DNA of 32,319 bases, taken from NCBI GenBank assembly GCA_021809365.1, contig JAKBAC010000022.1:1-32319 (forward strand), in the 5' to 3' direction. Numbering within the stretch: the first letter of the stretch is position 1; each line of letters opens with the position of its first letter. Of the stretch, positions 5,846 through 31,726 are shown piece by piece. Origin of the DNA: Planctomycetota bacterium. GTDB lineage: Bacteria > Planctomycetota > Phycisphaerae > WQYP01. The notes under the pieces were generated by a model. The model was given only the letters and a program-made list of their open reading frames with translations. It searched no databases and was not told the origin of the DNA. Made by a program: the position numbers and the translations under genes.

Positions 5846-5868
5846 GCGCCATGGGCGCGGCAATTTTT
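5846..5868 (+). terminator. Candidate terminator after the GH57-like gene
   Basis: A short GC stem (GCGCC, loop ATG, GGCGC) is followed within 6 nt by five Ts, 5 bp after the GH57-like stop codon. Stem and loop are both short, so it is a weak candidate. Confidence 0.3.
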
Positions 5869-5989
5869 CCAACGGTGGATGTGATTGGAAATTTTATATT
5901 TGAAAAATTAAGCTCGCCGTGGTGGCGGCAGCGGAGCATAAGAATTGAGAGCGGGAGATCATACGAGCAAATAGGATGGACATGCTGAC

Positions 5990-10829: not shown

Positions 10830-11127
10830 AACACCCGCGCCATCCTGAGTTCACGGAAAAAAGGCCGCGCAGTTTCACGGCGTATCATTGGCCAACCCAC
10901 GGCATTGTAGCTGGTGCGGATCATAAGCAACCCTTCACCGATAATCACAAAATGCAGTATCGGATGAATACCCAGCGCTGTCAATGTCGGACATTTGCGT
11001 CGTGTTGTCAGGAGTGTGGCAATAAATCCGTACCACGGTGCTCTGGTGAAAGACGATTGCGCCGCCCGTAACGGGCGTAACGTTTCACGCACCCCGCGTG
11101 CCGGGCGGCGCAATACGGCCTGATGCT
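10830..11127. other. Intergenic region with fragments of dispersed repeats
   Basis: No gene is supported in these 298 bases between hyfB and the large glycosidase gene. They contain a 17-bp copy (11014-11030) of the left end of the 120-bp element found at 24645, with one mismatch. Next comes a 14-bp stretch ACCACGGTGCTCTG (11032-11045) identical to the end of the 77-bp hairpin repeats near 24.9 kb, and then the strong inverted repeat listed separately. Confidence 0.5.
11056..11114. repeat. Perfect 13-bp inverted repeat (hairpin)
   Basis: ATTGCGCCGCCCG at 11056-11068 is the exact reverse complement of 11102-11114, with a 33-nt GC-rich loop that contains its own partial repeats (CCCGTAACGGG). 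It lies 13 bp beyond the stop codon of the large glycosidase gene and about 230 bp upstream of hyfB. There is no T-run, so it is either a Rho-independent-like 3' structure or part of a palindromic mobile repeat. Confidence 0.55.
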
Positions 11128-15394: not shown

Positions 15395-16663
15395 CTATTC
15401 ATTGCCACGAATCGCCAGGCCGAAAACTGCGGTGATCAGGCATGCACAAACGAGTGCTGCCAGCAATATGTTCAAATTAAGCGTTCGACCCGCGGCGGGT
15501 GAATGTTGCGCGGATACGGATTGATCCACGCCGGATGATGGGGCGGGTTTCCACCAGGTACCCTGTTGGGCCGCACCGGAAAGCGTTTTGATGTCCGAGA
15601 TCACATTGGCAAAAAAGATCACGAAAGAGGCGTGATGAGGCAAATCGGTCCAGGCGGAATTCACCTGGCCGGCCAGCCACAACCAGGTTACATGCGTCAA
15701 CGGATCATCCCGCTCCGCCAGCCAGGGGTGCCCATTCACCGCCATCAACGAATGCCAAGATCCTCCAAGTCGGGCTTTTATGAGCTTGTATACCTGCACG
15801 GTGGAAGGGTTCACCGATCGCAGCACAGCCTCGCGGCTGACAATCATCGGCGATTGCGGGCGTGAAAATGTAATTTGTCCACCGGGTGTAAGATCGGGGC
15901 CTGGTGTGTCACCCAGAAGGATGATCGCGCTATTTGCTATTCCGTGCAGGCTGGCCGGACTGAAATGGCGATTATGAATAATCCAGATGCCGGGGGCTGA
16001 AATTTCCGCATGCAAATTTATGTTGGGAATAGCCGACAGCAGCCGCAGGAACGCGCGCGGCGGCGTGCCGATGAAATGTGCCGCGACCTGGCGGCTTCCG
16101 GTGGAACGCGACAAACTGGTGCGTGCCAGAACATGGCCGGACTGTATCAGTGTGACGGTGACCATCTGGGCGGCGGGCACAGGCGCAATGTCGATTCCGC
16201 GGACCAACATTTTTGGCGCTACTGTTCTACGGATATGCTGATGATTCGCCGTGACCAACAACGTACTACCAGTTTTGACATCGGGTGGCTTTGCCTTGAT
16301 GAAAACGTCCAAAACATTGGAACTACCAGGTAATAAGCGACCGATGGCGGAAATGGCCATGGCGGGGCGGAGCGTTGCCGGTGCCAGGCGTTCATGCCAC
16401 TGTGGCGAACTTAACGCCATTGCGGACAGCACGGCTGCAATCAGAATCAGCACCCACGGCCAATCGGGGCGATGCCGGATTACGCCTTTGCCGCGGGTAG
16501 TCTGCTCCGGCCAGAATTCAAGAATGGTAAAAATGTGTTCCGGAGTTCCGGCTTTGCGCAACAGAAACCATCCACCGATGGCAACCATCGGTGTGAATAC
16601 CAGAAGCGCGGGATGCAGAAAAATCAAATTCATAAGTCCATCCGTGACCGCGGGTGTATCCAT
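15395..16663 (-). CDS. BatA-like membrane protein (aerotolerance-regulator N-terminal domain)
   Basis: The protein has 422 residues. The ATG at 16663 is chosen because GGAGGA lies 10 nt upstream; the longer reading frame runs into the 120-bp mobile element and is artificial. The N-terminus has the double-transmembrane module of the BatA family: a first helix with FLHPALLVFTPMVAIGGWFLLRK and a second with WPWVLILIAAVLSAMALSSPQWHE. A long periplasmic region follows, with an ILLGDTPGPDLTPGG segment reminiscent of the degraded von Willebrand A/gatekeeper region found in such proteins. A single C-terminal helix (about 395-415, LNLNILLAALVCACLITAVF) ends it. BatA-type proteins are frequent in planctomycetes, but their molecular role is poorly known. 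No MoxR-type ATPase or DUF58 gene lies beside it, although these are its usual neighbours. Confidence 0.65.
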   Translation of the reverse strand: MDTPAVTDGLMNLIFLHPALLVFTPMVAIGGWFLLRKAGTPEHIFTILEFWPEQTTRGKGVIRHRPDWPWVLILIAAVLSAMALSSPQWHERLAPATLRPAMAISAIGRLLPGSSNVLDVFIKAKPPDVKTGSTLLVTANHQHIRRTVAPKMLVRGIDIAPVPAAQMVTVTLIQSGHVLARTSLSRSTGSRQVAAHFIGTPPRAFLRLLSAIPNINLHAEISAPGIWIIHNRHFSPASLHGIANSAIILLGDTPGPDLTPGGQITFSRPQSPMIVSREAVLRSVNPSTVQVYKLIKARLGGSWHSLMAVNGHPWLAERDDPLTHVTWLWLAGQVNSAWTDLPHHASFVIFFANVISDIKTLSGAAQQGTWWKPAPSSGVDQSVSAQHSPAAGRTLNLNILLAALVCACLITAVFGLAIRGNE

Positions 16664-17083
16664 GATACGGGATTCCTCCGCAGCGAGCATCATTGGCGCT
16701 GAAGGGCGTGATTCATGGGTGTGCCAATACATCCGAACCAGTGTACCGGGGCACCCCATCCCCTTTTAGCCGCGTGTGCTTGCACCGCGTGTTTTGCGCG
16801 GAAAATCCACGGGTGCCCGGAAATATTGCCACGCCCTGATTCATTACCGCGTCGTGGATTGCTGTTGCGCGCAAAGCGCAGAGGAAGCCACCGGCGGGGA
16901 ACCGGGGGCTTCAGGCGGAAGAGAAATGGGTAATGCGTTTTGGAAAGCGAACGCAGAAGAAGTGTAGCGACAGCGTATGAGCGTGGTATGTGCATAGCGT
17001 AAATATTGCTTGAAAGTTTGGTTAGCGTTGCGCAAAGGCCAAAGTGGGCGGGATGGTACGAAACAATTATCCCGCGTGCCAGT
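16664..17083. other. Intergenic region carrying the first copy of the 120-bp element
   Basis: No gene is supported in these 420 bases between the deacetylase stop and the BatA-like start. They hold the 120-bp inverted-repeat element with its duplications (16709-16844). Beyond that is a GC-rich hairpin region near 16871-16914 (GAAGCC...GGCTTC) in which CATTACC at 16842 and GGTAATG at 16928 are inverted repeats. The last ~150 bases show nothing recognisable. Confidence 0.5.
16717..16836 (+). mobile_element. MITE-like non-coding element, copy A (120 bp)
   Basis: The element begins GGGTGTGCCAATAC and ends ATATTGCCACGCCC; read inward, the two ends are imperfect inverted repeats (GGGYGTGGCAATAY). 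An identical 8-bp sequence, TGATTCAT, sits directly outside both ends (16709-16716 and 16837-16844), the hallmark of a target-site duplication. It encodes no transposase. The body is about 94% identical to the copy at 24645-24763 in the same orientation. An unseen full-length insertion sequence would be needed to move it. Families that make 8-bp duplications include ISL3, IS256, IS6 and IS1595, and I cannot choose among them. Confidence 0.85.
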
Positions 17084-17827
17084 TCATTGTGTCGCGGCGA
17101 GATTTTTAAATGAGATCAGGTTGATGGTCTTGCGCTCAAGGGCGTTGCGGATTTCCGGATCGCATAAGGTTCGGACTTCAAGCAGGCGTTCATCACGGTA
17201 GGTGGAGTCCAAGGCGGTATCCAGGCCGGGGTGGCAGCTTAATTCGGTGATTCCGGGCTGGAGCTGGTCTAAAAGCCGCAGCAGATTGACTACGGAAATA
17301 TATTCCGGCTGCATTTGCAGATGCTGATCCTGGCCATAAAACGCGCCCAGAAACCGAACGGCGTCACTGTCACCACGCAGCACGACGCCCAAATTGTCCG
17401 CAACCTCGCGCATGATGGTCTTCACGGCCAGGCGCTGATGGACATGCTGGTGGGAATCCAGATGCGTTGGATCTTGGCCGGTCCATTGCCTGAACGCGGT
17501 AAGCTGTCGCTGAATTTCATCCTTGACGGCGGAAGAATCTTCCAGCGGCACCACGACTTTTGTTTGCACCCATTGGTCGGCGCGGAGGGCCCATTCTCCA
17601 AGTTCCAGATGGAGGCCGAGGCTCAATTCCGGATCATCGGCGGCGTATTGCGCGGCTTGAGCCGCCGCCGGCGCGAGCACCATGAGACTGGCACTGGTCA
17701 GCACACCATGCCTGCGGCACTGAATAATGCCGCGGTTGGTTGCGTCGCTGTATCCAAAATCATCAGCGTTAATGATGAGCTGTCTGGGGGCCGCACCATG
17801 CGGCGCGGCGACCGGGGACTTCAACAT
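17084..17827 (-). CDS. ChbG/HpnK (YdjC) family carbohydrate deacetylase
   Basis: The protein has 247 residues from the ATG at 17827. This start overlaps the upstream glycosyltransferase stop by 7 nt and places the family motif at the usual position (RQLIINADDFGYS at 16-27, with metal-binding Asp). Further family motifs are GLHLELGEW, the HLDSHQHVHQ metal-binding histidines, and ITELSCHPG near the C-terminus. These enzymes remove N-acetyl groups from small amino sugars, chito-oligosaccharides or the glucosamine-hopanoid intermediate. It is the last gene of the six-gene operon, where it could deacetylate the operon's own product. HpnK would normally sit among hopanoid genes, and none is present here. 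Confidence 0.85.
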   Translation of the reverse strand: MLKSPVAAPHGAAPRQLIINADDFGYSDATNRGIIQCRRHGVLTSASLMVLAPAAAQAAQYAADDPELSLGLHLELGEWALRADQWVQTKVVVPLEDSSAVKDEIQRQLTAFRQWTGQDPTHLDSHQHVHQRLAVKTIMREVADNLGVVLRGDSDAVRFLGAFYGQDQHLQMQPEYISVVNLLRLLDQLQPGITELSCHPGLDTALDSTYRDERLLEVRTLCDPEIRNALERKTINLISFKNLAATQ

Positions 17828-18990
17828 CCGATTTGATCCATGACATTTTTTAATACTTTTTCCGCCGCAAAATATTGTTCCGCGATTTCCCGTGCCGCCC
17901 GGCAATGGCCCACATAATTCGATTCAATCGCATCAACGGCGCTTAGGATATCATCCATGGTCTGAAAAGAAAATAGCCCCTGCCCGGTGGGCAGATGATT
18001 GCTGAATCCCGTTTCCTGATTAATCACCGGCCTTCCCGCCGCCAGATAACAGGCGCTGCGATCGCTGAACCAGCCGCTCTTGAGGCGAATATTCTGATCC
18101 TTGGCCACGGAAAATTCACCACGTGATTGCCGGATGTACTGGTTGTAGCGCTGCATGTCCCGCGAGATATGTACCGGATCCACCAGGTGCCAGCTATTGG
18201 ATTCCAGCAGTGTCCGCGTCGCGGCATCCACACCGGCGGCCAATTCAAATGCAACGCGCCGGTGTTGTGGCAAATCAAGACATTTCAGAAATTCACGATC
18301 CTTGGACCAGTAATAGGTTTCACCCTGATAGACAATATCGCGGCCCGTATTTTTCCATGTCGCGATGGTGTTGTACGCCGCATCGGACCGCGGCGGCAGC
18401 GGTTCCCACATATCCAGCAGCACGGGTTGGCGCGTGGGCCGCCATGTGTAACGGCCGACGGGCAGGCGGCAATCGGGGAAACCGAGATTTTCGCCATAGG
18501 TAAAGTGGTGCGTATATGAATCAAGCACCGCGATGGCAGCGCTGTTACCCTGCGCGATTTGAATTTGTGTCACCACCGGATCAGTTTCCAGATATACCCG
18601 CACGGGGCACCGTCGATGCTCCTGGCGCAATTCCTGCGCTCCGGTGACATTGATCATCACATCCGCAGTCTGATACAACTCGGCGATTTGGGCTTCGGAC
18701 ATGCCATAGCATTTTCCGCCTTCATAATGTCCGCGAAAGGCCCAGCGATCGGCCAGCCCGTGCGCCTGGAGAATCGGCGCGACGGCATTGATATTCGCGT
18801 CGGCATCGGGTGAACTGTCGCGCAAATTGGGATTGTAAATCCAGCGTGCCGAATCCTCCACATAATAGGGGTCATAACCGAGCTTGCGCAGGCCCAGCAT
18901 AAAATGCAGAAACTGATAGGTAACGCCGGCGAGCGGATACCAGAATAGAATTCCAAAGATGATGATTCTGGGTTTGGATTTTTCAGGCAA
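17821..18990 (-). CDS. Glycosyltransferase (GT4/GT-B type), TTG start
   Basis: The reading frame continues upstream, but the likely start is TTG at 18990, with AAGGAG 7 nt before it; this gives 389 residues beginning LPEKSKPRIIIFGILFWYPLAGVTYQFLHFMLGL. It overlaps the upstream acyltransferase stop by 8 nt. A Rossmann-like N-terminal half (RIIIFGILFWYPLAG) and a C-terminal half with KSGWFSDRSACYLAAGRPVINQETGF, the nucleotide-sugar site of GT-B enzymes, suggest a glycosyltransferase. The classic EX7E motif appears only loosely. The last ~60 residues resemble the usual GT4 tail (a loop over LFSFQTMDDILSAVDAI). Acceptor and donor are unknown. Position in the operon indicates glycan assembly in the cytoplasm. 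Confidence 0.75.
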   Translation of the reverse strand: MPEKSKPRIIIFGILFWYPLAGVTYQFLHFMLGLRKLGYDPYYVEDSARWIYNPNLRDSSPDADANINAVAPILQAHGLADRWAFRGHYEGGKCYGMSEAQIAELYQTADVMINVTGAQELRQEHRRCPVRVYLETDPVVTQIQIAQGNSAAIAVLDSYTHHFTYGENLGFPDCRLPVGRYTWRPTRQPVLLDMWEPLPPRSDAAYNTIATWKNTGRDIVYQGETYYWSKDREFLKCLDLPQHRRVAFELAAGVDAATRTLLESNSWHLVDPVHISRDMQRYNQYIRQSRGEFSVAKDQNIRLKSGWFSDRSACYLAAGRPVINQETGFSNHLPTGQGLFSFQTMDDILSAVDAIESNYVGHCRAAREIAEQYFAAEKVLKNVMDQIGC

Positions 18991-19576
18991 CGTCCATCTC
19001 CTTGTCCCGCAAGGTGCGAATGACACGGGCGGGATTTCCCGCGGCAATGCAGAAGTCCGGAATATCCTGATCCACCACCGATCGCGCGCCGATGATGCTC
19101 CCATCGCCGATGCGCACGCCGGGTAATATACAGCAGTCAAAACCTATCCATACGTTATTGCCGATGGTAACCGGGCGTGGCCGCACCGGAGCGAAAATCC
19201 CGGAATGGCGGTTGGCGGCGAATGTTTCCAAAAGTCGCCGCCGCGATGGTACGTCAATCGGTGCGCGAAAATTATCCATAATGACAACATTCCATGATAG
19301 CAGGCAATGCGTTCCGATTGTGACCTGTTGATCGCTGATCAGCCAGAGGCCATTGAGCAGCGTATACGCTCCCACCTGAAATATGGCATCAGGGCCCATA
19401 TCAAACATGCAACCGATATAAGCTGCGCTGTTGGTGCCCAATATCATCCCCAACTCCCGGCGGCTGCGATAGAGGCGAAAGCTGTACGTGGTTTCAACAT
19501 GAGCGCCATCACACACTTGCACATTTTCCGGAATGGTTCCGCCGTACCAATCGCCGGCAATTTGATGCGCCGTCAT
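18983..19576 (-). CDS. Hexapeptide-repeat acyltransferase (second of a tandem pair)
   Basis: A 197-residue left-handed beta-helix protein. Hexad patterns are seen throughout, most clearly in TIGTHCLLSWNVVIMDN and in the C-terminal coil TIGNNVWIGFDCCILPGVRIGDGSIIGARSVVDQDIPD, followed by the typical AAGNPARVIR end of CatB/WcaF/LacA-type O- or N-acetyltransferases. Asp/Asn at MDN lies where such enzymes normally carry the catalytic His (usually DH), so the site may differ. Its ATG overlaps the preceding acyltransferase stop as ATGA. It shares architecture with that gene, suggesting an old tandem duplication. It probably acetylates a sugar of the operon's glycan using acetyl-CoA. Confidence 0.83.
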   Translation of the reverse strand: MTAHQIAGDWYGGTIPENVQVCDGAHVETTYSFRLYRSRRELGMILGTNSAAYIGCMFDMGPDAIFQVGAYTLLNGLWLISDQQVTIGTHCLLSWNVVIMDNFRAPIDVPSRRRLLETFAANRHSGIFAPVRPRPVTIGNNVWIGFDCCILPGVRIGDGSIIGARSVVDQDIPDFCIAAGNPARVIRTLRDKEMDVA

Positions 19577-20145
19577 AGCGTCTCCACCACGCGTGCGGGA
19601 TTGCCAAGCACTCTGGTGCCCGCGGGAACATCATGGGTAACCACGCTGCCGGGGCCGATCCAGGCTCCCCGACCGATATGCACGCCCTTGAAAACCGTGG
19701 CATTCGGGCCGATCCACACATCATCTTCTATCACCACGCCGAGGGTTTGCACCGGCGGACGGGGGATTCCATGCCCAGCCGGTGAACACGCGACGGCGTC
19801 GGCGATGCGCAGGGCCGGAGCAATGGGATGAAAATCACTGTCGGCAATGACGGCGTTCCATCCAATAAGCACATAATTACCAATGGAAATGGATAACTCG
19901 CACATCAGCACCGCACTGGTAAAGCAACAAAAATTGCCGATGGTCATGCGTCCGGTCGGACCAACGGAAAACTGCACGCCATCCATTGTGGCGTTATCAC
20001 CAATGACCAGAGCGTCGGCGAATTGCCCACGAAAGCGGCGGAACGCCGCGCTGCCGATGATGCGTGTGTTGGTTCCCGCCCGCACGCCCGTGGGCAACGG
20101 TCCACCATCCCATATTGCGGTTGCACCTTCGAATTCGGTACTCAA
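19573..20145 (-). CDS. Hexapeptide-repeat acyltransferase (first of a tandem pair), TTG start
   Basis: A 190-residue protein starting with TTG at 20145, with GGGAGG close upstream and TTGA overlap with the ABC exporter stop. Left-handed beta-helix hexads run from about residue 30 (TRIIGSAAFRRF) to the end. The segment IGNYVLIGWNAVIADSDFHPI contains an Asp-x-x-His near the place of the catalytic His in CatB-like acetyltransferases. The C-terminal coil is VVIEDDVWIGPNATVFKGVHIG and the end is PAGTRVLGNPARVV. It is likely an O- or N-acetyltransferase for the glycan made by the operon, paired with the next gene. Confidence 0.83.
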   Translation of the reverse strand: MSTEFEGATAIWDGGPLPTGVRAGTNTRIIGSAAFRRFRGQFADALVIGDNATMDGVQFSVGPTGRMTIGNFCCFTSAVLMCELSISIGNYVLIGWNAVIADSDFHPIAPALRIADAVACSPAGHGIPRPPVQTLGVVIEDDVWIGPNATVFKGVHIGRGAWIGPGSVVTHDVPAGTRVLGNPARVVETL

Positions 20146-22004
20146 GTGGCCTCCCCGGCTGGACGATGCGGCTCGCTCTGCAATTCATAGAGGTGGCGAT
20201 AAAGTCCTTCCTTCTCCATGAGTTGATCGTGCGTGCCGATCTCAAGGAGTTGGCCGTCCCGCAATACAACAATCTGATCCACATGGCGGACGGTATGCAG
20301 ATGGTGCGCGATGATAATCGTGGTGCGGCCCGCCATCAGTCGCTTGAGCGTGGCCAGCAGATCCGATTCCGTCTGTGCGTCCAGACCGGTGGTAGGCTCA
20401 TCAAGCACAATGATCCGCGCATCTTTCAGGAACGCCCGCGCCAGCGAGATCCTCTGCCGCTGCCCGCCGGAAAGCATGACGCCACGCTCGCCGATCGGCG
20501 TATTAAAACCTTTCGGCAAAGCCTGTATAAAATCCCAGGCCCCGGCAGCGCGGGTGGCGGCGTGAATTTGTTCAAGAGTCGCATCCGGACGGGAATATGC
20601 GATATTTTCCTGAATGCTGACATCAAAAAGCACCGGCTCCTGCGGAACAATGGCGATCTGCCGGCGCAGGGACTCCAAGGTTATATCGCGTAAAGCGACC
20701 CCATCGAGCAAAATCCGCCCATCCACGGGGTCATAGAAACGGACAATCAGACTGGCGAGAGTTGTTTTGCCCGCCCCGGACGGCCCGACCATGGCCACCG
20801 ACGATCCGGCCGGGATATTCAATTGCACATCACGCAGTACCTGTTGATCCGCGCGGTAACCAAAACTGACATGATCGAATTCAATGTGTCCGGCCACGGG
20901 CGTTTTTATTGCGTGCGCCGATGGCAAATCGCACAGGGTGGATTTTTTATCGAGAATCTCAAAGACTCTGTGCGCCCCGGCCACCGAACCTTGAATGGAA
21001 GACGCGGTGTATGAAAGCGTTTCCAGCGGCTTAAATAAAAGTGCCGTATACCCAACCATCAGCACAATATCACCCGGCGATAATTCCCCATGCAGCACCC
21101 GCCGCGCGGTCATCCAAATCACCACGGCCGTGCCACATGCGAATAATACCGCCACTCCGCTTTGACTGGCGGTTTGTAGGACCGTCAGGCGCAGATTGGC
21201 TTTCAGGCTTTCCCTGGCCTGATTGGCAAAACGATTGGATTCATGCTTTTCCCGGCCAAACGCCTGCACCGCGCGAATGCCGCCGAGGGTTTGTTCCACA
21301 CGGGTGCTCACGCGGCTTTCATTTTCATGGACGCGGGTGGATAACTCTGTCGTCGGTTTTTCCAAGCCGCGCACCAGCACCAGCAGCAGACAGCCGATCA
21401 CCAGCGCCACCACGGCAATGCTCCAGTCCTGCCCGACCATTACCACCGCAATGCCCACCAGTGTGACCGCGGACGCGATGCCCGGGACCAGTCCTTCATT
21501 AAACAGCGATTGCACCGAATAGGTATCCCATGTAATGCGATACAGGGAATCCCCCACCGTCGTCGCATCATGAAAACTCAATGGCAGGTGTTGAATATGT
21601 TCAAAGACCCGGCATCGCAATTTGAATACCATGCGCAAGCCCGATGAGATCAACAACCAGGTACTTAGCACGCTGATGGCCGCGCCGCCCAGACTGATCA
21701 GCAGTAGCGCAATACATAACAATATGATCAGCCCCAGTTTATTGTCACCAAGCGGCGTGATCTGGGCCACGAATTTCTGGGCGACGACCAGAAATTCCGG
21801 GGGCGATTTGGTTGTGGCGACGGTATTCATGATAAATTTCAGCGGCCAGGGCTGCAAAAGCCCCAGCACCGATCCGAACAGCATCAGAGCCATGCCCAAT
21901 CCACTATTCCACAGTTCACCTGCCATACACAGCGCCAGTAATCGGGCCGCGGTCCGAAAAGCACCTGGGCGAGTGGCGGGGGCGGAATTTGCGGGTTGGT
22001 TCAT
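20142..22004 (-). CDS. ABC exporter half-transporter (MsbA/PglK-like, fused permease and ATPase)
   Basis: The protein has 620 residues. The ATG at 22004 overlaps the upstream stop as ATGA and has AGGGA 7 nt before it, so it is preferred over an ATG seven codons earlier. The N-terminal ~340 residues form a six-helix type I exporter domain. The nucleotide-binding domain has Walker A GPSGAGKTT at 407-415, a Q-loop (IVPQEP), signature LSGGQ at 511-515, Walker B IIVLDEP at 531-537 and an H-loop (IIAHHLHTV). Half-size exporters homodimerise and flip lipids, lipid-linked sugars or peptides. Between a membrane glycosyltransferase and sugar-modifying enzymes, the likely cargo is a glycolipid or lipid-linked glycan; that is inference. 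Confidence 0.88.
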   Translation of the reverse strand: MNQPANSAPATRPGAFRTAARLLALCMAGELWNSGLGMALMLFGSVLGLLQPWPLKFIMNTVATTKSPPEFLVVAQKFVAQITPLGDNKLGLIILLCIALLLISLGGAAISVLSTWLLISSGLRMVFKLRCRVFEHIQHLPLSFHDATTVGDSLYRITWDTYSVQSLFNEGLVPGIASAVTLVGIAVVMVGQDWSIAVVALVIGCLLLVLVRGLEKPTTELSTRVHENESRVSTRVEQTLGGIRAVQAFGREKHESNRFANQARESLKANLRLTVLQTASQSGVAVLFACGTAVVIWMTARRVLHGELSPGDIVLMVGYTALLFKPLETLSYTASSIQGSVAGAHRVFEILDKKSTLCDLPSAHAIKTPVAGHIEFDHVSFGYRADQQVLRDVQLNIPAGSSVAMVGPSGAGKTTLASLIVRFYDPVDGRILLDGVALRDITLESLRRQIAIVPQEPVLFDVSIQENIAYSRPDATLEQIHAATRAAGAWDFIQALPKGFNTPIGERGVMLSGGQRQRISLARAFLKDARIIVLDEPTTGLDAQTESDLLATLKRLMAGRTTIIIAHHLHTVRHVDQIVVLRDGQLLEIGTHDQLMEKEGLYRHLYELQSEPHRPAGEAT

Positions 22005-24544
22005 GACTGTTCCCTGACTTCCCATTCACTGGGCCGTGGGTGGTGAATATACTTGAACACCACCGCCAGGGCCGCACCGGCGTCCATGGATACGCGAAGC
22101 GTCAGCAGACCCGCGACAATCAGCATCGGAATTGCGCCGGGCCAACTGCGGGCGAATAGATCAAACAGGCCCAGCCCAACCAATAAAAACAGAACGACCT
22201 GGATCACGCGGGGAAATGTCGGCCAGGATCGCAGGCGTACCAATTGCCGTCCGCCGCCATGCTCTTCAATGGCCATCCTCATTTGCAGGCCGCCGAAGGT
22301 GCCGCTGCGGCAGAATAAATCCCAGCGGTCAAAATCCCCGCCGCGCTGCACGCACAGCCCTTCTTGTTTGAGAAACAATTCCAAATCCCTCAGGCGGTCT
22401 TCCATACTGCGCCACTGTTCGCTCCACAGGACGAATTCGCGCGGCACAGGCATATCCAGTCCGCTGGGAAAACGCATTCGCCACGGTGTAAGGCCGCGCG
22501 ACAGCCGCCCGCGCAAGCGAGCCACCGGCTGAATCATGTAGCACCACATGGTCAGCATCCGCAGTTTGAATATGGCTCGCCGGGTGCGCGGAATTTCATC
22601 AAATCGGCAATACGATGCGCCGATAATCGCCTGCGTGATTGTAGCCGCCAGCATCGCCAGCAGCATGGCTCCAAGCACCACCGGATGCCAGTAAAAGCCC
22701 ACCATCAGCATGACGCTCAATGCCAGAACGCCCAGATACCATTCCGGTGTCATCGCCAATGACATCAAAATTCCCGGCGATCCATGATAGACCGACTGGA
22801 ATAGCGCGCTACCCCATGAACCATGATAAATTCTCCGGCGGCCCCAGTTGAGGAATTGCCAAAGTCCGCGGCCATAAAGCCGCCCATGCCATGCAATATG
22901 GCCAAAGGCGTTGTACTTCTCCGGCCATTTGCGCTCCAGCATGGCTTCGGCCTTGCCATAATTGATCTGTTGTCGCCAATACGCCCGCAGTGAATTGCGG
23001 CGTTTATGCCAGACCACCGCCGCCGGGCTGAAACCCAATCGCCAGCCATGTGCCTGCAGACGCCAACACGCATCGACATCATCCCCGGCGATGCGGAACT
23101 GCGGATCGAATCCTCCCACCGATCGCAACACCCGCGTAAGAAAGGCCAAATTGCAGCCCGGAATGTGTTCCGCCTCAGTATCGCTTAGCAGCACCTGAAT
23201 CGGCCCGCCGGGAGAATGCGCCACGGCATCCGCAATATCCGCATCGCCTGGCGGGGCGATGTTGGGGCCACCCACCGCGGCGAATTTTCCGCTACGAAAA
23301 GTCTCAACCAGATATTGCAGCCAGTAGGCCGTTGGACAGGCATCATCGTCCAGGTAGACGATAATGTCGCCCGTGGCCGCCTCCAGTCCCAGATTGCGGG
23401 CATTGCTTAATCCCTTGTTGACCGACTGTACCAGTTTCACCGGATATTCCCGCACGATTTCCGGCAAGGCATCGGTGGAACCATCATCAACCACAATGAC
23501 TTCATAGTCCGGATAGCGCAATTGGCCCACACCCTCAAGGCAGAAGCGAATCGTGCGGCTGCCGTTATAGCTGCAAATAACAACCGACACCTTCGGCCAT
23601 TTGGACTCGGGACTGAAAGGGGCCTTGGAAAACGCTTCCGCCGCCGCCGCCAGTGACGGCTTGGGTTCCCGTTCCCGTGTGGTCAGGCCGAAGGCCCAAC
23701 CGGTAATATCATTGCCGCCGCGATACCATTCATCGGTCCATGCAAACAGAAAAGTCCCCGCGCAGCCGCTCTTGAACAGGCAGCGAATCTGCCAGCCCAG
23801 CGTGACCGCCTGCTCACATTCCCCCTTGGATATGCTGTCCAGACCTATTTCCGCCAGTAACAGCGGCTTATCACCGGCGATGTTATGCAAGCGGCTGATG
23901 TAGCTGCGAAGTTGCTCCTTGGATTCCAGATACACGTTCATTGCCATGAAATCCAGAAATGGCAGGTACAGATATTCCGTGGTGGGATAATTCACATAGG
24001 TAACCAGGGCACCGGGGTCTGCTTCCTTGGCCACCGTGTAGAGCCGTTTAAGAAAGCGCTCAATTCGCCGATGGCCATACCAGCGGACAATGGGGGCCGG
24101 AATTTCATTGCCGATGGCAAAGGCCAGCACCGCTGGATGTCCGGCACATGCTTCCACATTTCCGCGGACTTTTTCAACGATGGATTCGCGCATGCGCGGA
24201 TTATCCAGAAATGCCAGGTGCTGTTCCCATGGCAAGCCCACCAGCACAAATAGTCCATATCGCTGCGCCGTATCCAATAACCACCGGGGTGGCGCGGTGT
24301 AAACGCGCACCGCGTTGATACCATTTTCCGCCATCATGGCAAAATCAATATCCACCTGTTGGCGGGTGTGATATTCCGAGCCGTCCGACTCGGGCTTAAA
24401 TGGACCGTACGTGACGCCCTTGATAAAAAAGGGTTCGTCACCGAGATATAGAAATTTTCCATGAACCGCTAACCGCAGCGCGGAAGCCGGGGAATAAATC
24501 ACCGGTGACGGCGTTACTATTAAAGGGTTTGCGGTTTGCGTCAT
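22001..24544 (-). CDS. Bifunctional membrane protein: clan-A glycoside hydrolase fused to GT2 glycosyltransferase
   Basis: An 847-residue protein; the ATG at 24544 has GGAG 10 nt upstream. Residues 25-305 form a (beta/alpha)8 glycosidase like GH2/GH5 catalytic domains: FFIKGVTYGPF, NGINAVRVYTAPP, acid/base Glu147 in AFAIGNE and nucleophile Glu232 in LLLAEIG. Residues 318-545 form a GT2 (GT-A) domain with VSVVICSYNG, VVDDGSTD (351-358), LDDDA (398-402), GCNLAFL and AGDDVD (487-491). Two hydrophobic regions follow (about 605-650 and 780-820), separated by a soluble region. Both active sites look intact. There is no signal peptide, so the GH domain should be cytoplasmic. It may trim, transglycosylate or control the length of the chain made by the GT2 domain. 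First gene of the six-gene operon. Confidence 0.88.
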   Translation of the reverse strand: MTQTANPLIVTPSPVIYSPASALRLAVHGKFLYLGDEPFFIKGVTYGPFKPESDGSEYHTRQQVDIDFAMMAENGINAVRVYTAPPRWLLDTAQRYGLFVLVGLPWEQHLAFLDNPRMRESIVEKVRGNVEACAGHPAVLAFAIGNEIPAPIVRWYGHRRIERFLKRLYTVAKEADPGALVTYVNYPTTEYLYLPFLDFMAMNVYLESKEQLRSYISRLHNIAGDKPLLLAEIGLDSISKGECEQAVTLGWQIRCLFKSGCAGTFLFAWTDEWYRGGNDITGWAFGLTTREREPKPSLAAAAEAFSKAPFSPESKWPKVSVVICSYNGSRTIRFCLEGVGQLRYPDYEVIVVDDGSTDALPEIVREYPVKLVQSVNKGLSNARNLGLEAATGDIIVYLDDDACPTAYWLQYLVETFRSGKFAAVGGPNIAPPGDADIADAVAHSPGGPIQVLLSDTEAEHIPGCNLAFLTRVLRSVGGFDPQFRIAGDDVDACWRLQAHGWRLGFSPAAVVWHKRRNSLRAYWRQQINYGKAEAMLERKWPEKYNAFGHIAWHGRLYGRGLWQFLNWGRRRIYHGSWGSALFQSVYHGSPGILMSLAMTPEWYLGVLALSVMLMVGFYWHPVVLGAMLLAMLAATITQAIIGASYCRFDEIPRTRRAIFKLRMLTMWCYMIQPVARLRGRLSRGLTPWRMRFPSGLDMPVPREFVLWSEQWRSMEDRLRDLELFLKQEGLCVQRGGDFDRWDLFCRSGTFGGLQMRMAIEEHGGGRQLVRLRSWPTFPRVIQVVLFLLVGLGLFDLFARSWPGAIPMLIVAGLLTLRVSMDAGAALAVVFKYIHHPRPSEWEVREQS

Positions 24545-24644
24545 TTTCCAATTACTCCAATCTCCATCCCGTCAACGTCCAAAGTCGGCATTATATCCAT
24601 ATTTTCAGATCAGAGCATTCCCGGCGACGTGCAAAAAGAAAGAG

Positions 24645-24763
24645 GGGTGTGGCAATACATCCGGGCAGTGTACCGGGGCACCCCATCCCCTTTTAGCCGC
24701 GTGTGCTTGCACCGCGTGTTTTGCGCGGAAAATCCACGGGTGCCTGGCAATATTGCCACGCCC
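24645..24763 (+). mobile_element. MITE-like non-coding element, copy B (119 bp)
   Basis: Same element and orientation as at 16717-16836, from GGGTGTGGCAATAC to TATTGCCACGCCC. The internal ~80 bp, from GTGTACCGGGG onward, differs at only two or three positions. The inverted ends extend imperfectly over about 22 bp. The flanking octamers are AGAAAGAG (24637-24644) and AGAAAAAG (24764-24771), 7 of 8 identical, which is best read as a slightly mutated target-site duplication. It encodes nothing. It lies ~100 bp upstream of the start of the six-gene glycan operon. Confidence 0.82.
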
Positions 24764-24830
24764 AGAAAAAGGCTGGTGCGTGACACTTCACGCGAATATG
24801 GTTGTATTGCTCCACGAGCACAATACTCCC

Positions 24831-24907
24831 GGAGCGCCGTCACGGCAATGCGGTGCCGTGGGGTTTCGCAGGGAGCGTAACGGCACCGGGTTATCACCAC
24901 GGTGCTC
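24831..24907. repeat. 77-bp hairpin repeat, unit 1
   Basis: The unit starts GGAGCGCCGT and ends ACCACGGTGCTC. It is internally palindromic: the outer arms GAGCGCCGT and ACGGTGCTC pair with one mismatch, and the inner arms GGTGCCGT and ACGGCACC pair exactly. Unit 2 is the same length with about five substitutions. Confidence 0.75.
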
Positions 24908-24921
24908 GGGGGATCGTGCTC

Positions 24922-24998
24922 GGAGCACCGTCATGGCAATGCGGTGCCGTTGGGTTTCGCAGGGAGCGTAACGGCACCTGATTATCACCACGGTGCTC
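24922..24998. repeat. 77-bp hairpin repeat, unit 2
   Basis: A direct repeat of unit 1 after a 14-bp spacer. The outer arms GAGCACCGT (24923-24931) and ACGGTGCTC (24990-24998) are perfect, and the inner arms GGTGCCGT/ACGGCACC are conserved. Relative to unit 1, one change (gcg to gca) restores arm pairing. This looks like a REP/BIME-type palindromic element. Confidence 0.75.
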
Positions 24999-25117
24999 TG
25001 TGGGGAGACTATTACGGGGTCCGCAGGCCGCGAAAAGTGCCACGCATCCAAATAAGGCCCATGCGCTTGCGCAACGGCCAGATAATCAGACGCCCCAATA
25101 ACCGTTCAACCATAGGA

Positions 25118-25522: not shown

Positions 25523-25992
25523 AACGCAACTCCAAAAAAAACAACACTGTTGCGGCCCGCCGGTGACCACCACCAGCTTGACCGGAACATTTCACCAGAA
25601 TGAAAGTCTCATCCACCCTGCCCGACTTTTCGCGGCACACGCCGTCAAGCCGCCATATTATAGCACCCCCGCCCGCCACCTGGCGCAAATCTCGTCGGGT
25701 ACTCTGTCACGACAAACTCATATATTTACATAGCTCTACGTGCCCTGTGCCCCCCGTCATGTTCTCCCACGGCGGACATGCCTCACGGCGGCTCAATGCC
25801 GCCGGCTATGTGCCACGTTGCTCGTGTTGTTCGTTGTTCAGGCCGCGGAAATATTTCAGGGCACCCGTGGCGGCGACTGTTGCCGCAGAGCAGAGAACAG
25901 TAGAAAGTTGAGCAGTGACATTTATTGCCACGCCCGTTGCTCGATGTTTAACATCGTCCCTTGGTTTTCCACCGTAACCATTGATCCATGGC
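25523..25992. other. Intergenic region with repeat fragments
   Basis: No gene is supported in these 470 bases downstream of ftsK. They hold a 13-bp copy of the right end of the 120-bp element (TATTGCCACGCCC, 25923-25935), with no matching left end nearby. A 12-bp GGGCACCCGTGG (25859-25870) is the reverse complement of part of the element body. A 26-bp motif at 25888-25913 (GAGCAGAGAACAG...GTTGAGC) recurs on the other strand at 28976 and 29064. A hairpin GATGTT/AACATC near 25945 could mark the end of the ftsK transcript but has no T-run. Confidence 0.45.
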
Positions 25993-28840: not shown

Positions 28841-29295
28841 GCCCCGTTGTTCGTCGCTCGTTACTCGTTGAGCGCAGCGTTTCGTTGAAGCGCGTCGTTC
28901 CCTCGTCTTATCTTTGTGTCGTTGTGTCGTTGTGTCGTTGTGGTAAATACCGTCGTCGTCGTCGCCGCAGCGACAGCTCAATTCTCTACTGCTCGCCTGC
29001 TCTACGTTCCTCCGCTCCCGGCAAACGACAGCAATTCTCCAGGCCAGCCTTATGTGCTCTACCGCTCAACTCTCTGCTGTTCTCCTGCTCCAGCCGCCGC
29101 AGCGGCTACCCCTCCGTTACCTCGTGGTTAATTCCGTCGCCGTCGTCGTCCCCTTTGCGCTCTTACGCCGCTTTGCGGTTACCTCCCCGTCTCTTAGTGT
29201 TTTAGTGTCGTTGTGGTGAATATCGTCGTCATATCCTCCGCTCACCTCCGCTACCTCGTGGTAAATATGGTGCTGCTCTCTGGCCTGGTAGCGCC
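28841..29295. repeat. Mosaic of low-complexity and short dispersed repeats
   Basis: About 450 non-coding bases. They include three tandem GTGTCGTT octamers (28916-28939). GTGTCGTTGTGG plus an AATA-x-CGTCGTC tail appears at 28932-28957 and again at 29205-29230 (24 of 26 bases). CTCCG-T/C-TACCTCGTGG-T-T/A-AAT appears at 29112-29132 and 29246-29266. Two 27-bp copies of a GCTCAAYTCTCTRCTG motif lie at 28976-29002 and 29064-29090. On the minus strand the text looks like the ACCACAACGACAC... / ACCACGAGGTAAC... strings seen between genes in many environmental bacteria. Reading frames across it are fortuitous. Confidence 0.6.
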
Positions 29296-29315
29296 CGGAC
29301 AATAACTGTCCGCAT
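29296..29315. repeat. 20-bp palindromic repeat, left copy
   Basis: CGGACAATAACTGTCCGCAT occurs here and, identically, at 31634-31653. The core CGGACA-ATAAC-TGTCCG is an inverted repeat with a 5-nt centre, suitable for a dimeric DNA-binding protein or a recombination site. The two copies lie in direct orientation on either side of the methyltransferase and TetR genes. Confidence 0.7.
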
Positions 29316-29467
29316 GGGGTGGTAAACATATCCGTATTGAACGTTCGGGTGTTCCGAATGCCGACTTGTTTTAGTGAAGGGAAATGTATGCAGTCGATGC
29401 CGATACCGGCCTGCCTACGGACAGCGGAATTTGCACGGTCCCTTATCAAATAAACATTGAGGAAACA

Positions 29468-30273: not shown

Positions 30274-30365
30274 ATATGTATTTTAATGGACACTGCGCCC
30301 GTAGTCAAGCCGGCTGGGTTCCAATGGGGGGCGATTTGTTTCGGTTGTGCCGCTATTACAACGCC

Positions 30366-30385
30366 GCGCGGAAAAAATTCCGCGC
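30366..30385. repeat. 20-bp perfect-arm inverted repeat
   Basis: GCGCGGAA and TTCCGCGC (8-bp arms) flank AAAA. It lies about 100 bp before the TetR ATG. It may be a second operator or an RNA hairpin in the TetR leader. Confidence 0.4.
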
Positions 30386-30486
30386 CTGCCGGGGCGGCGG
30401 TTGTGTGGTAGGGATGGATGTTCCATAATACGCTCAATTGCCCGGCGCGGAGCAGCCGCGCAGCGTAACGCCGTAGGGTTTTTAAG

Positions 30487-31179: not shown

Positions 31180-31726
31180 TAGCATCCCAAAATTGCCAAA
31201 TGTGCAATCATTTTTCTTGCAAAATGCCAAGTTGCGCTCGGTAGTCCCTTATTGCGCCTGTTTTTCACGGAAATTGCATGGCTAAGAGCGTTTTTCACAG
31301 CGATACCGGTGCCCGCACCGAATGCCCATGCGCGGATGTCCCCATCCTCGGTGCCTTTACAGAGCCACTGGCGGGGTTCGCTCGTCTCGAAAGTTAACAG
31401 CGACAGCCGCCCATTAGATGCGGGGTTTACGGCGGGCCGCGGCCCTGCGGATCGGGTTGTTGCACCTTTGCGTGGCCTTCCGGGCGGTAGTGCCCACAGG
31501 CTTCGCCCGACAGGTTTATCGAATTTACACAGGGCGCTGACGCCTGCCTGCCGCGACGAGAACTTAGGGGTTGGCCGGTAACGCAGGCGTCCCGCTTGCC
31601 TGGTGCCGACAAATTTGTGAAGTATCCGCCGAGCGGACAATAACTGTCCGCATCACGAGGTAGCATGAAATCTGACCGGTGCAGCCTCGGTGGTGGCACC
31701 AAAAGGAAATTTTAGAAAGGGAAGTT
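31180..31726. other. Intergenic region, no gene supported
   Basis: Frames open on both strands across these 547 bases have no recognisable product and no ribosome-binding site. Structure seen: an inverted repeat GACGCCTGC (31539-31547) / GCAGGCGTC (31583-31591); the right copy of the 20-bp palindrome (31634-31653); and a 16-codon frame at 31665-31715 (MKSDRCSLGGGTKRKF) preceded by GAGG, which might be a leader peptide for the phosphatase gene 12 nt further on, though this is speculative. Confidence 0.4.
31634..31653. repeat. 20-bp palindromic repeat, right copy
   Basis: Identical to 29296-29315 (CGGACAATAACTGTCCGCAT), 2.34 kb away in the same orientation. Here the palindrome extends by one pair (GCGGACA...TGTCCGC). 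It lies 74 bp before the phosphatase start codon. Confidence 0.7.

Follow-up and report, generated by a model that had tools for sequence, protein, structure and literature searches.

The 32,319-nt stretch of DNA that constitutes positions 1 to 32,319 of contig JAKBAC010000022.1 from a Planctomycetota bacterium (assembly GCA_021809365.1; hereafter, the window) contains two nearly identical segments of about 120 bp, which raises the question of how these segments arrived at their present sites and which enzyme moved them. The initial annotation had described them as gene-free copies of a miniature inverted-repeat transposable element (MITE)-like sequence with imperfect inverted ends and 8-bp target duplications, which were delivered by transposition and are non-autonomous because the parental transposase is not in the window. 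Our analyses bear out each part of this description, and they indicate that the two segments, copies A and B, are very probably non-autonomous MITEs moved by an ISKra4-type transposase of a full-length insertion sequence (IS) residing elsewhere.

Copy A (16717..16836; 120 bp) and copy B (24645..24763; 119 bp), both on the plus strand, were delimited by sequence reading, alignment, a repeat scan, and flank comparison. The two copies differ at 6 of 120 columns in a pairwise alignment and form the longest direct repeat reported by the repeat scan for the window (101 nt ungapped, 97%). Both have the terminal inverted repeats of MITEs (16717..16738 on the plus strand and 16815..16836 on the minus strand in A; 24645..24666 and 24742..24763, respectively, in B), and both lie within the size range of such elements (about 70–300 bp, without coding capacity). 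Where open reading frames (ORFs) of 80 aa or more overlap A or B, they enter from outside, and the likely start of a BatA-like gene, at 16663, falls outside A. Copy A lies between two occurrences of TGATTCAT (16709..16716 and 16837..16844; 8/8), and copy B is flanked by AGAAAGAG on the left (24637..24644) and AGAAAAAG on the right (24764..24771; 7/8). A tblastn search of the window with the second ORF of the candidate parental IS (see below) returned a single 11-residue match (E = 0.40), and no match to Pfam transposase families was obtained for 19 ORFs chosen from the 112 listed in the window.

Relatives were sought in a sample of 28 genomes representing the family of Planctomycetota bacterium ZJ5.bin40 (G001), a metagenome-assembled genome (MAG). 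The window DNA is taken to be a further member of this family because counterparts of its glycosyltransferase and YdjC genes are present there. A full-length IS was found in G014 (L201, 301–1866). This element is 1566 bp in length, has identical 22-bp ends facing one another, and is bordered on both sides by a perfect octamer, TTTTTGAA. It contains two overlapping ORFs, ORF1 (411–674; 87 aa) and ORF2 (640–1839; 399 aa). The best family for ORF2 was NF033572 (ISKra4 family transposase, NCBIfam; E = 2.5e-42), matched over profile positions 61–422 with a score of 145.5 bits against a curated cut-off of 205; ORF2 of the copy in G008 scored 156.6 bits (E = 1.1e-45) against the same cut-off, and the ORF2 matches of both genomes begin at profile position 61–62. 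ORF1 alone yielded no match in NCBIfam or Pfam. Distant matches were also present on annotated plasmid records, many of them labelled as ISKra4-family transposases, with 22–35% identity among the matches listed. Transposase matches at an E-value of 1e-10 occurred in 20 of the 28 genomes but were mostly distant or fragmentary, and copies or remnants with at least 68% identity that carry the same end (0–3 mismatches) just past the gene were identified in seven (G014, G008, G007, G016, G018, G011, and G025).

The ends connect this IS, located in genomes other than that of the window, to the MITEs. One base distinguishes the 22-bp end of the G014 element from GGGCGTGGCAATTTTTCCGGGC, a common form among the ends in G001, and the one visible end of the G008 copy is exactly GGGCGTGGCAATTTTTCCGGGC. 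The right end of copy A agrees with this G008 IS end at 21 of 22 positions, and that of copy B at 19 of 22. Another ISKra4-type element, of 1815 bp in G012 (L218, 612–2426), has different ends (GGGTGTGGCAAAA) and was set aside as a parent. A pair of ends 4.2 kb in extent was also noted in G001 (L098).

Further copies of the ends are abundant in related genomes. A right-end pattern searched over a species collection was found in six stretches, five of them in ZJ5.bin40; one match each was obtained from viral contigs (L007) and a Proteobacteria MAG (L003); neither has a partner end around it, and both were regarded as chance. The 22-bp end GGGCGTGGCAATNTTTCCGGGC has 127 matches at up to 3 mismatches in G001, compared with 2 for a reversed-pattern control, and the end motif of the element family can be written as GGGCGTGGCAAT. 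At the same threshold, at least one match was found in all 28 genomes (range, 1–127) and at least four in 22, with 0–2 per genome for the control, so that the six genomes with 1–3 matches are not clearly over the control. The richest genomes were G001 (127), G017 (113), G027 (101), G023 (64), and G024 (60). In a class-wide draw of 298 genomes, a slightly wider pattern was matched with up to 2 mismatches in 40 genomes, which by our tally of the rows split into 27 from the family (of 28) and 13 from outside it (of 270); the control gave 2 matches over all 298.

The interior of the window copies has a narrower distribution. It was found over at least 99 of 120 bp in 5 of the 28 genomes, with 78–87% identity (G027, G023, G024, G008, and G017), and as short matches only in five more. 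The copies in G027, G023, and G024 occupy one common site, and the G017 copy lacks the right end. Compared with the complete copies in G027, G024, and G008, the window copies show 77–91% identity, and complete relatives within the window subfamily that bear a duplication on both sides were found in G023 (TTCGTCGG) and G008 (GTGCAACG). A 119-bp element in G007 (L075, 1406–1524) and G021 (L086, 1501–1619) has the same immediate flanks in both genomes, with octamers that do not match; it is possibly an old common insertion overlapping a reading frame.

The flanking octamers were compared for 53 delimited elements from fetched loci, A and B among them. The loci, drawn from the best matches and from unpaired ends at the first 100 of the 127 places in G001, are not a random sample. 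Before the count, pairs of ends were left out if they fell outside 85–400 bp, totalled over 9 end mismatches, or lay less than 20 bp from a locus end; where pairs overlapped, the poorer was dropped, and elements alike in both sequence and flank were counted once. The 53 do not include the G023 copy at L068, probably on account of its end mismatches, and L067 and L069 represent the same ancestral site counted twice. The octamers agreed at 8/8 in 19 elements, 7/8 in 11, 6/8 in 3, and fewer positions in 20, whereas 2756 cross-pairings of a left flank with the right flank of another element gave 7/8 in 3 cases and 8/8 in none. Perfect direct repeats abutting the ends of the 53 elements were 7, 8, and 9 bp in length in 2, 19, and 2 cases, respectively, and none was found at 4–6 or 10–12 bp.

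Insertion-free counterparts were sought by joining the flanks of 14 insertions in G001 and scoring 10 candidates per genome in the family. For 3 of the 14, relatives aligned across the junction without the element. The AAAGTGCC site in G021 is clean, with a single octamer and 91.5% identity over 118 columns with one gap beside the octamer; in G027, about 270 bp of other DNA is present instead. At the CCGTGGAC site, the sequences of G021, G023, G024, and G027 run through without interruption, with differing octamer letters, and those of G022 and G025 show small deletions; at the CTGTCGGC site, alignment to G023, G024, and G027 requires gaps that reach about 15 nt. No aligned empty counterpart was resolved in the family for the remaining 11. 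For A and B themselves, searches of the relatives through the neighbouring glycosyltransferase and YdjC genes found no empty counterpart. Both genes are conserved (the former with at least 79% identity over nearly the whole length in 11 genomes), but the DNA beyond them differs in the relatives, such that neither occupied nor empty sites can be aligned. The protein beside the insertion common to G027, G023, and G024 otherwise has only matches of 36–45% identity, and the joined flanks of the G008 insertion align on one side only in the relatives, except for a G004 match that extends 11 nt past the junction. The initial annotation had proposed looking in this genome and relatives for further copies, differing octamers, and a full-length IS with the same ends, and in sister strains for empty sites. 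The first three were all obtained in related genomes (127 ends in G001, 30 of 53 elements at 7/8 or 8/8, and the 1566-bp element of G014), and the last was obtained for the three G001 insertions but not for A or B.

Clustering of the interiors by blastn (E-value of 1e-4, at least 30 nt, single linkage) yielded groups of 20 (mainly 172–185 bp), 19 (127–129 bp; mean pairwise identity 91%, range 63–98%), 7 (mostly 119 bp), 5 (the window type), and 2 elements. The groups have their ends in common but not their interiors; thus, at least five interior types are found on the same ends.

Several points weigh against the reading as MITEs moved by an ISKra4-type transposase. The window MITEs and the IS have only the approximately 22-bp ends in common and no interior DNA, and agreement with the G008 IS end is poorer at the left than at the right end of both A and B (15 and 18 of 22 positions on the left, respectively). 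No close copy of the transposase was found in the five end-richest genomes, whose best matches either span most of the gene with at most 42% identity or reach 53% across 66 residues; G027 has no match at an E-value of 1e-10, and the 42% relative in G001 lacks these ends, leaving common ends as the only parental link there. Both ends were found in a single IS copy only; in the alignment, the first 109 bp are missing from that of G008. In G016, no more than 410 bp separates 13 of the 34 listed ends from the start of a contig, as would be the case if a long repeat broke the assembly, and the absence of the IS from these draft genomes is therefore weak evidence. The 20 of 53 elements whose flanks agree at fewer than 6 of 8 positions also count against this reading. 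A one-base shift of one boundary brings 4 of these to 7 or 8 of 8, a latitude not given to the control, and 10 of the remaining 16 belong to the 172–185 bp class, for which the boundaries may be wrong or old.

An alternative is that A and B are true MITEs moved by a transposase of another family, one with similar ends starting with GGG and an 8-bp duplication, and that their resemblance to ISKra4-type ends is convergent. Other IS families also produce 8-bp duplications, and such a mover would account for both the lack of a close ISKra4-type transposase in the end-richest genomes and the lack of common interior DNA. However, the ends of the G014 IS are identical to one another and a single base from GGGCGTGGCAATTTTTCCGGGC, the visible G008 end is GGGCGTGGCAATTTTTCCGGGC itself, and seven genomes carry copies or remnants of the transposase gene bearing such an end; we therefore regard a different mover as unlikely. 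A far smaller probability attaches to the view that the copies are functional non-coding elements under selection, such as an RNA, a terminator, or a protein-binding hairpin, with coincidental octamers. Copy B folded as DNA is indeed stable (z = −2.85; an equally good fold in 1 of 200 shuffles), and the 77–91% identity to the full-length copies in other genomes could be read as conservation. No Rfam match was obtained in the window at the gathering score, however, and none of the 36 predicted pairs exhibited pair-preserving double changes among six aligned copies. Promoter and terminator scans showed no promoter-like or terminator-like site in either region, and the elements occupy differing genomic sites with 8-bp duplications. 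The lack of an Rfam match, the peak of duplications at 8 bp, and the lack of compensatory changes led us to reject a functional RNA.

An equally slight probability is assigned to repetitive extragenic palindromic (REP) or REPIN-type repeats moved by a REP-associated tyrosine transposase (RAYT). This idea is prompted by a 28-bp interior stretch, TTTTAGCCGCGTGTGCTTGCACCGCGYG (16764–16791 and 24691–24718), which has 23 matches in 8 of the 28 genomes. Four of these lie in window-type MITEs and 19 elsewhere (e.g. G001, C172, 24099–24186; G023, C515; and G025, C318), and by our reading of the places 12 of the 19 form close pairs in opposite orientation. Against such movement, though no search aimed at RAYT genes was made, there are at most seven matches per genome; the other MITE interiors cluster apart from the window type; and 8-bp duplications are present here, whereas RAYT movement is not known to generate any. 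TTTTAGCCGCGTGTGCTTGCACCGCGYG is possibly a REP-like repeat carried as a passenger by the MITE.

The preferred reading, that of MITEs mobilized in trans by an ISKra4-type enzyme, suggests the following course of events. A full-length element located elsewhere in the cell would supply an ISKra4-type DDE transposase, which would bind the approximately 22-bp ends and move the MITE. The MITE would be joined to a target whose strands are cut 8 nt apart, and repair would leave the duplication. The interior would be a passive passenger because at least five interior types are found on the same ends. Because only these ends are common to the MITEs and the IS, mobilization in trans is an inference.

The frame arrangement of the candidate parental IS is unusual. 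The open frame of ORF2 overlaps ORF1 at +1 (equally −2) in G014, G008, and two G007 copies. The segment GGCGCAAGCCGCTTTTTCCCCCGGTGGA is identical in four aligned copies (L201, 600–680; L287, L289, and L237, minus strand), two of which are from G007 and one of which is otherwise broken; it reads GCT TTT TCC CCC in the ORF1 frame and CTT TTT CCC CCG in the ORF2 frame. A tRNA on TTT could slip forward by one base onto another TTT, and this region is a candidate for a programmed frameshift site. More tentatively, and with somewhat less than even confidence, we propose that one ISKra4-type (prokaryotic Mutator-like) lineage with a conserved +1 change at GCTTTTTCCCCCGG cross-mobilized at least five unrelated interiors throughout the family and was then lost or reduced where the MITEs are most numerous, the present copies representing a burst that outlived its parent.

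The window contains additional traces of the family. Copy C (25841..25935, minus strand) is a degraded or partial relative with a different interior, which clusters with no other. One of its ends is exactly GGGCGTGGCAATA, and the other includes 33 nt with 88% complementarity to the right end of A in the repeat scan. A duplication of its own is doubtful because the flanks (GTTGTTCA and GTTGCTCG) agree at only 6/8 and lie within a locally repetitive stretch. Two weak traces, both on the plus strand, are a possible truncated left end of the window subfamily (11012..11035; 22 bp with 91% identity to the G027 and G024 copies) and a lone end-like sequence (5853..5874; 5 mismatches in 22) for which no partner end was found. 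Other repeats in the window include a unit in two adjoining copies beside copy B (24830–25003; 83 nt, 92%), CGGACAATAACTGTCCGCAT at both 29296–29324 and 31634–31662, and degenerate GTCGTTGTG or CGTCGTC-rich repeats at 28900–29260. In addition, 60 bp at 30328–30387 has 73% identity to a 173-bp element of L110 and is possibly an old remnant.

Both A and B lie on the promoter side of genes and may, judging from their positions, alter expression. The gene beside copy A is the BatA-like one, whose Pfam match only slightly exceeds the cut-off (E = 1.2e-5); A lies 53 bp upstream of its likely start, which is our reading and is preceded by GGAGGA. Copy B is located 100 bp upstream of the glycosyltransferase gene, whose start was likewise read by us at 24544; a TATAAT sequence of this gene, on the minus strand at 24590–24595, is also present in the G027 relative. 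Of the 28 family genomes, 11 carry a counterpart of the glycosyltransferase with 79–82% identity over nearly the whole length; the contig bearing it also includes the closest YdjC relative in 9 of them. Gene distances of 50–100 and 100–250 bp are given as the preferences of ISKra4 and ISLre2 elements in PMC9208149; the distances of A and B fit these preferences, but two insertions prove nothing.

If confirmed, this family offers many sequenced insertions with clean duplications, some empty sites, and a candidate parental IS, as well as a candidate programmed frameshift of unusual direction. MITEs are a known kind of element, and the window copies resemble the Type I bacterial MITEs outlined in PMC10969869 in being short and gene-free, with inverted ends, a duplication of fixed length, and likely mobilization in trans. 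They differ in their Planctomycetota host and ISKra4-type ends, neither ‘ISKra4’ nor ‘Planctomycet’ occurring in the main text of that review. The literature searched, mostly at the level of titles and abstracts, contained no earlier report of ISKra4-linked MITEs or of MITEs in this lineage. The Type II MITEs of Anabaena sp. 90, as described in PMC3542288, are likewise multi-copy and gene-free with inverted ends, and some lie inside genes; however, their ends are unlike those of the ISs in their own genome, whereas the window MITEs have the ends of an IS found in other genomes. The GTAG/CGTC-tagged REPs, reported from Planctomycetes among other phyla in PMC3733652, are also small dispersed repeats with inverted symmetry from the same phylum, but they are palindromes of 20–40 bp that are tied to RAYTs or lack a transposase, in contrast to the 22-bp ends and 8-bp duplications of the present elements. 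The ISKra4 family itself corresponds to p-MULT 4 and comprises the ISAzba1, ISMich2, and ISKra4 groups, according to PMC3942029. The candidate parental IS resembles this family in its best match (NF033572) and, in layout, the ISMich2 group in its two overlapping frames, which in that group are joined by a −1 shift. It differs in its score, which is below the cut-off, and in its second frame, which lies at +1 (or −2), a direction unlike the one printed there. What is new here is the probable parent of ISKra4 type and the +1 arrangement of its frames.

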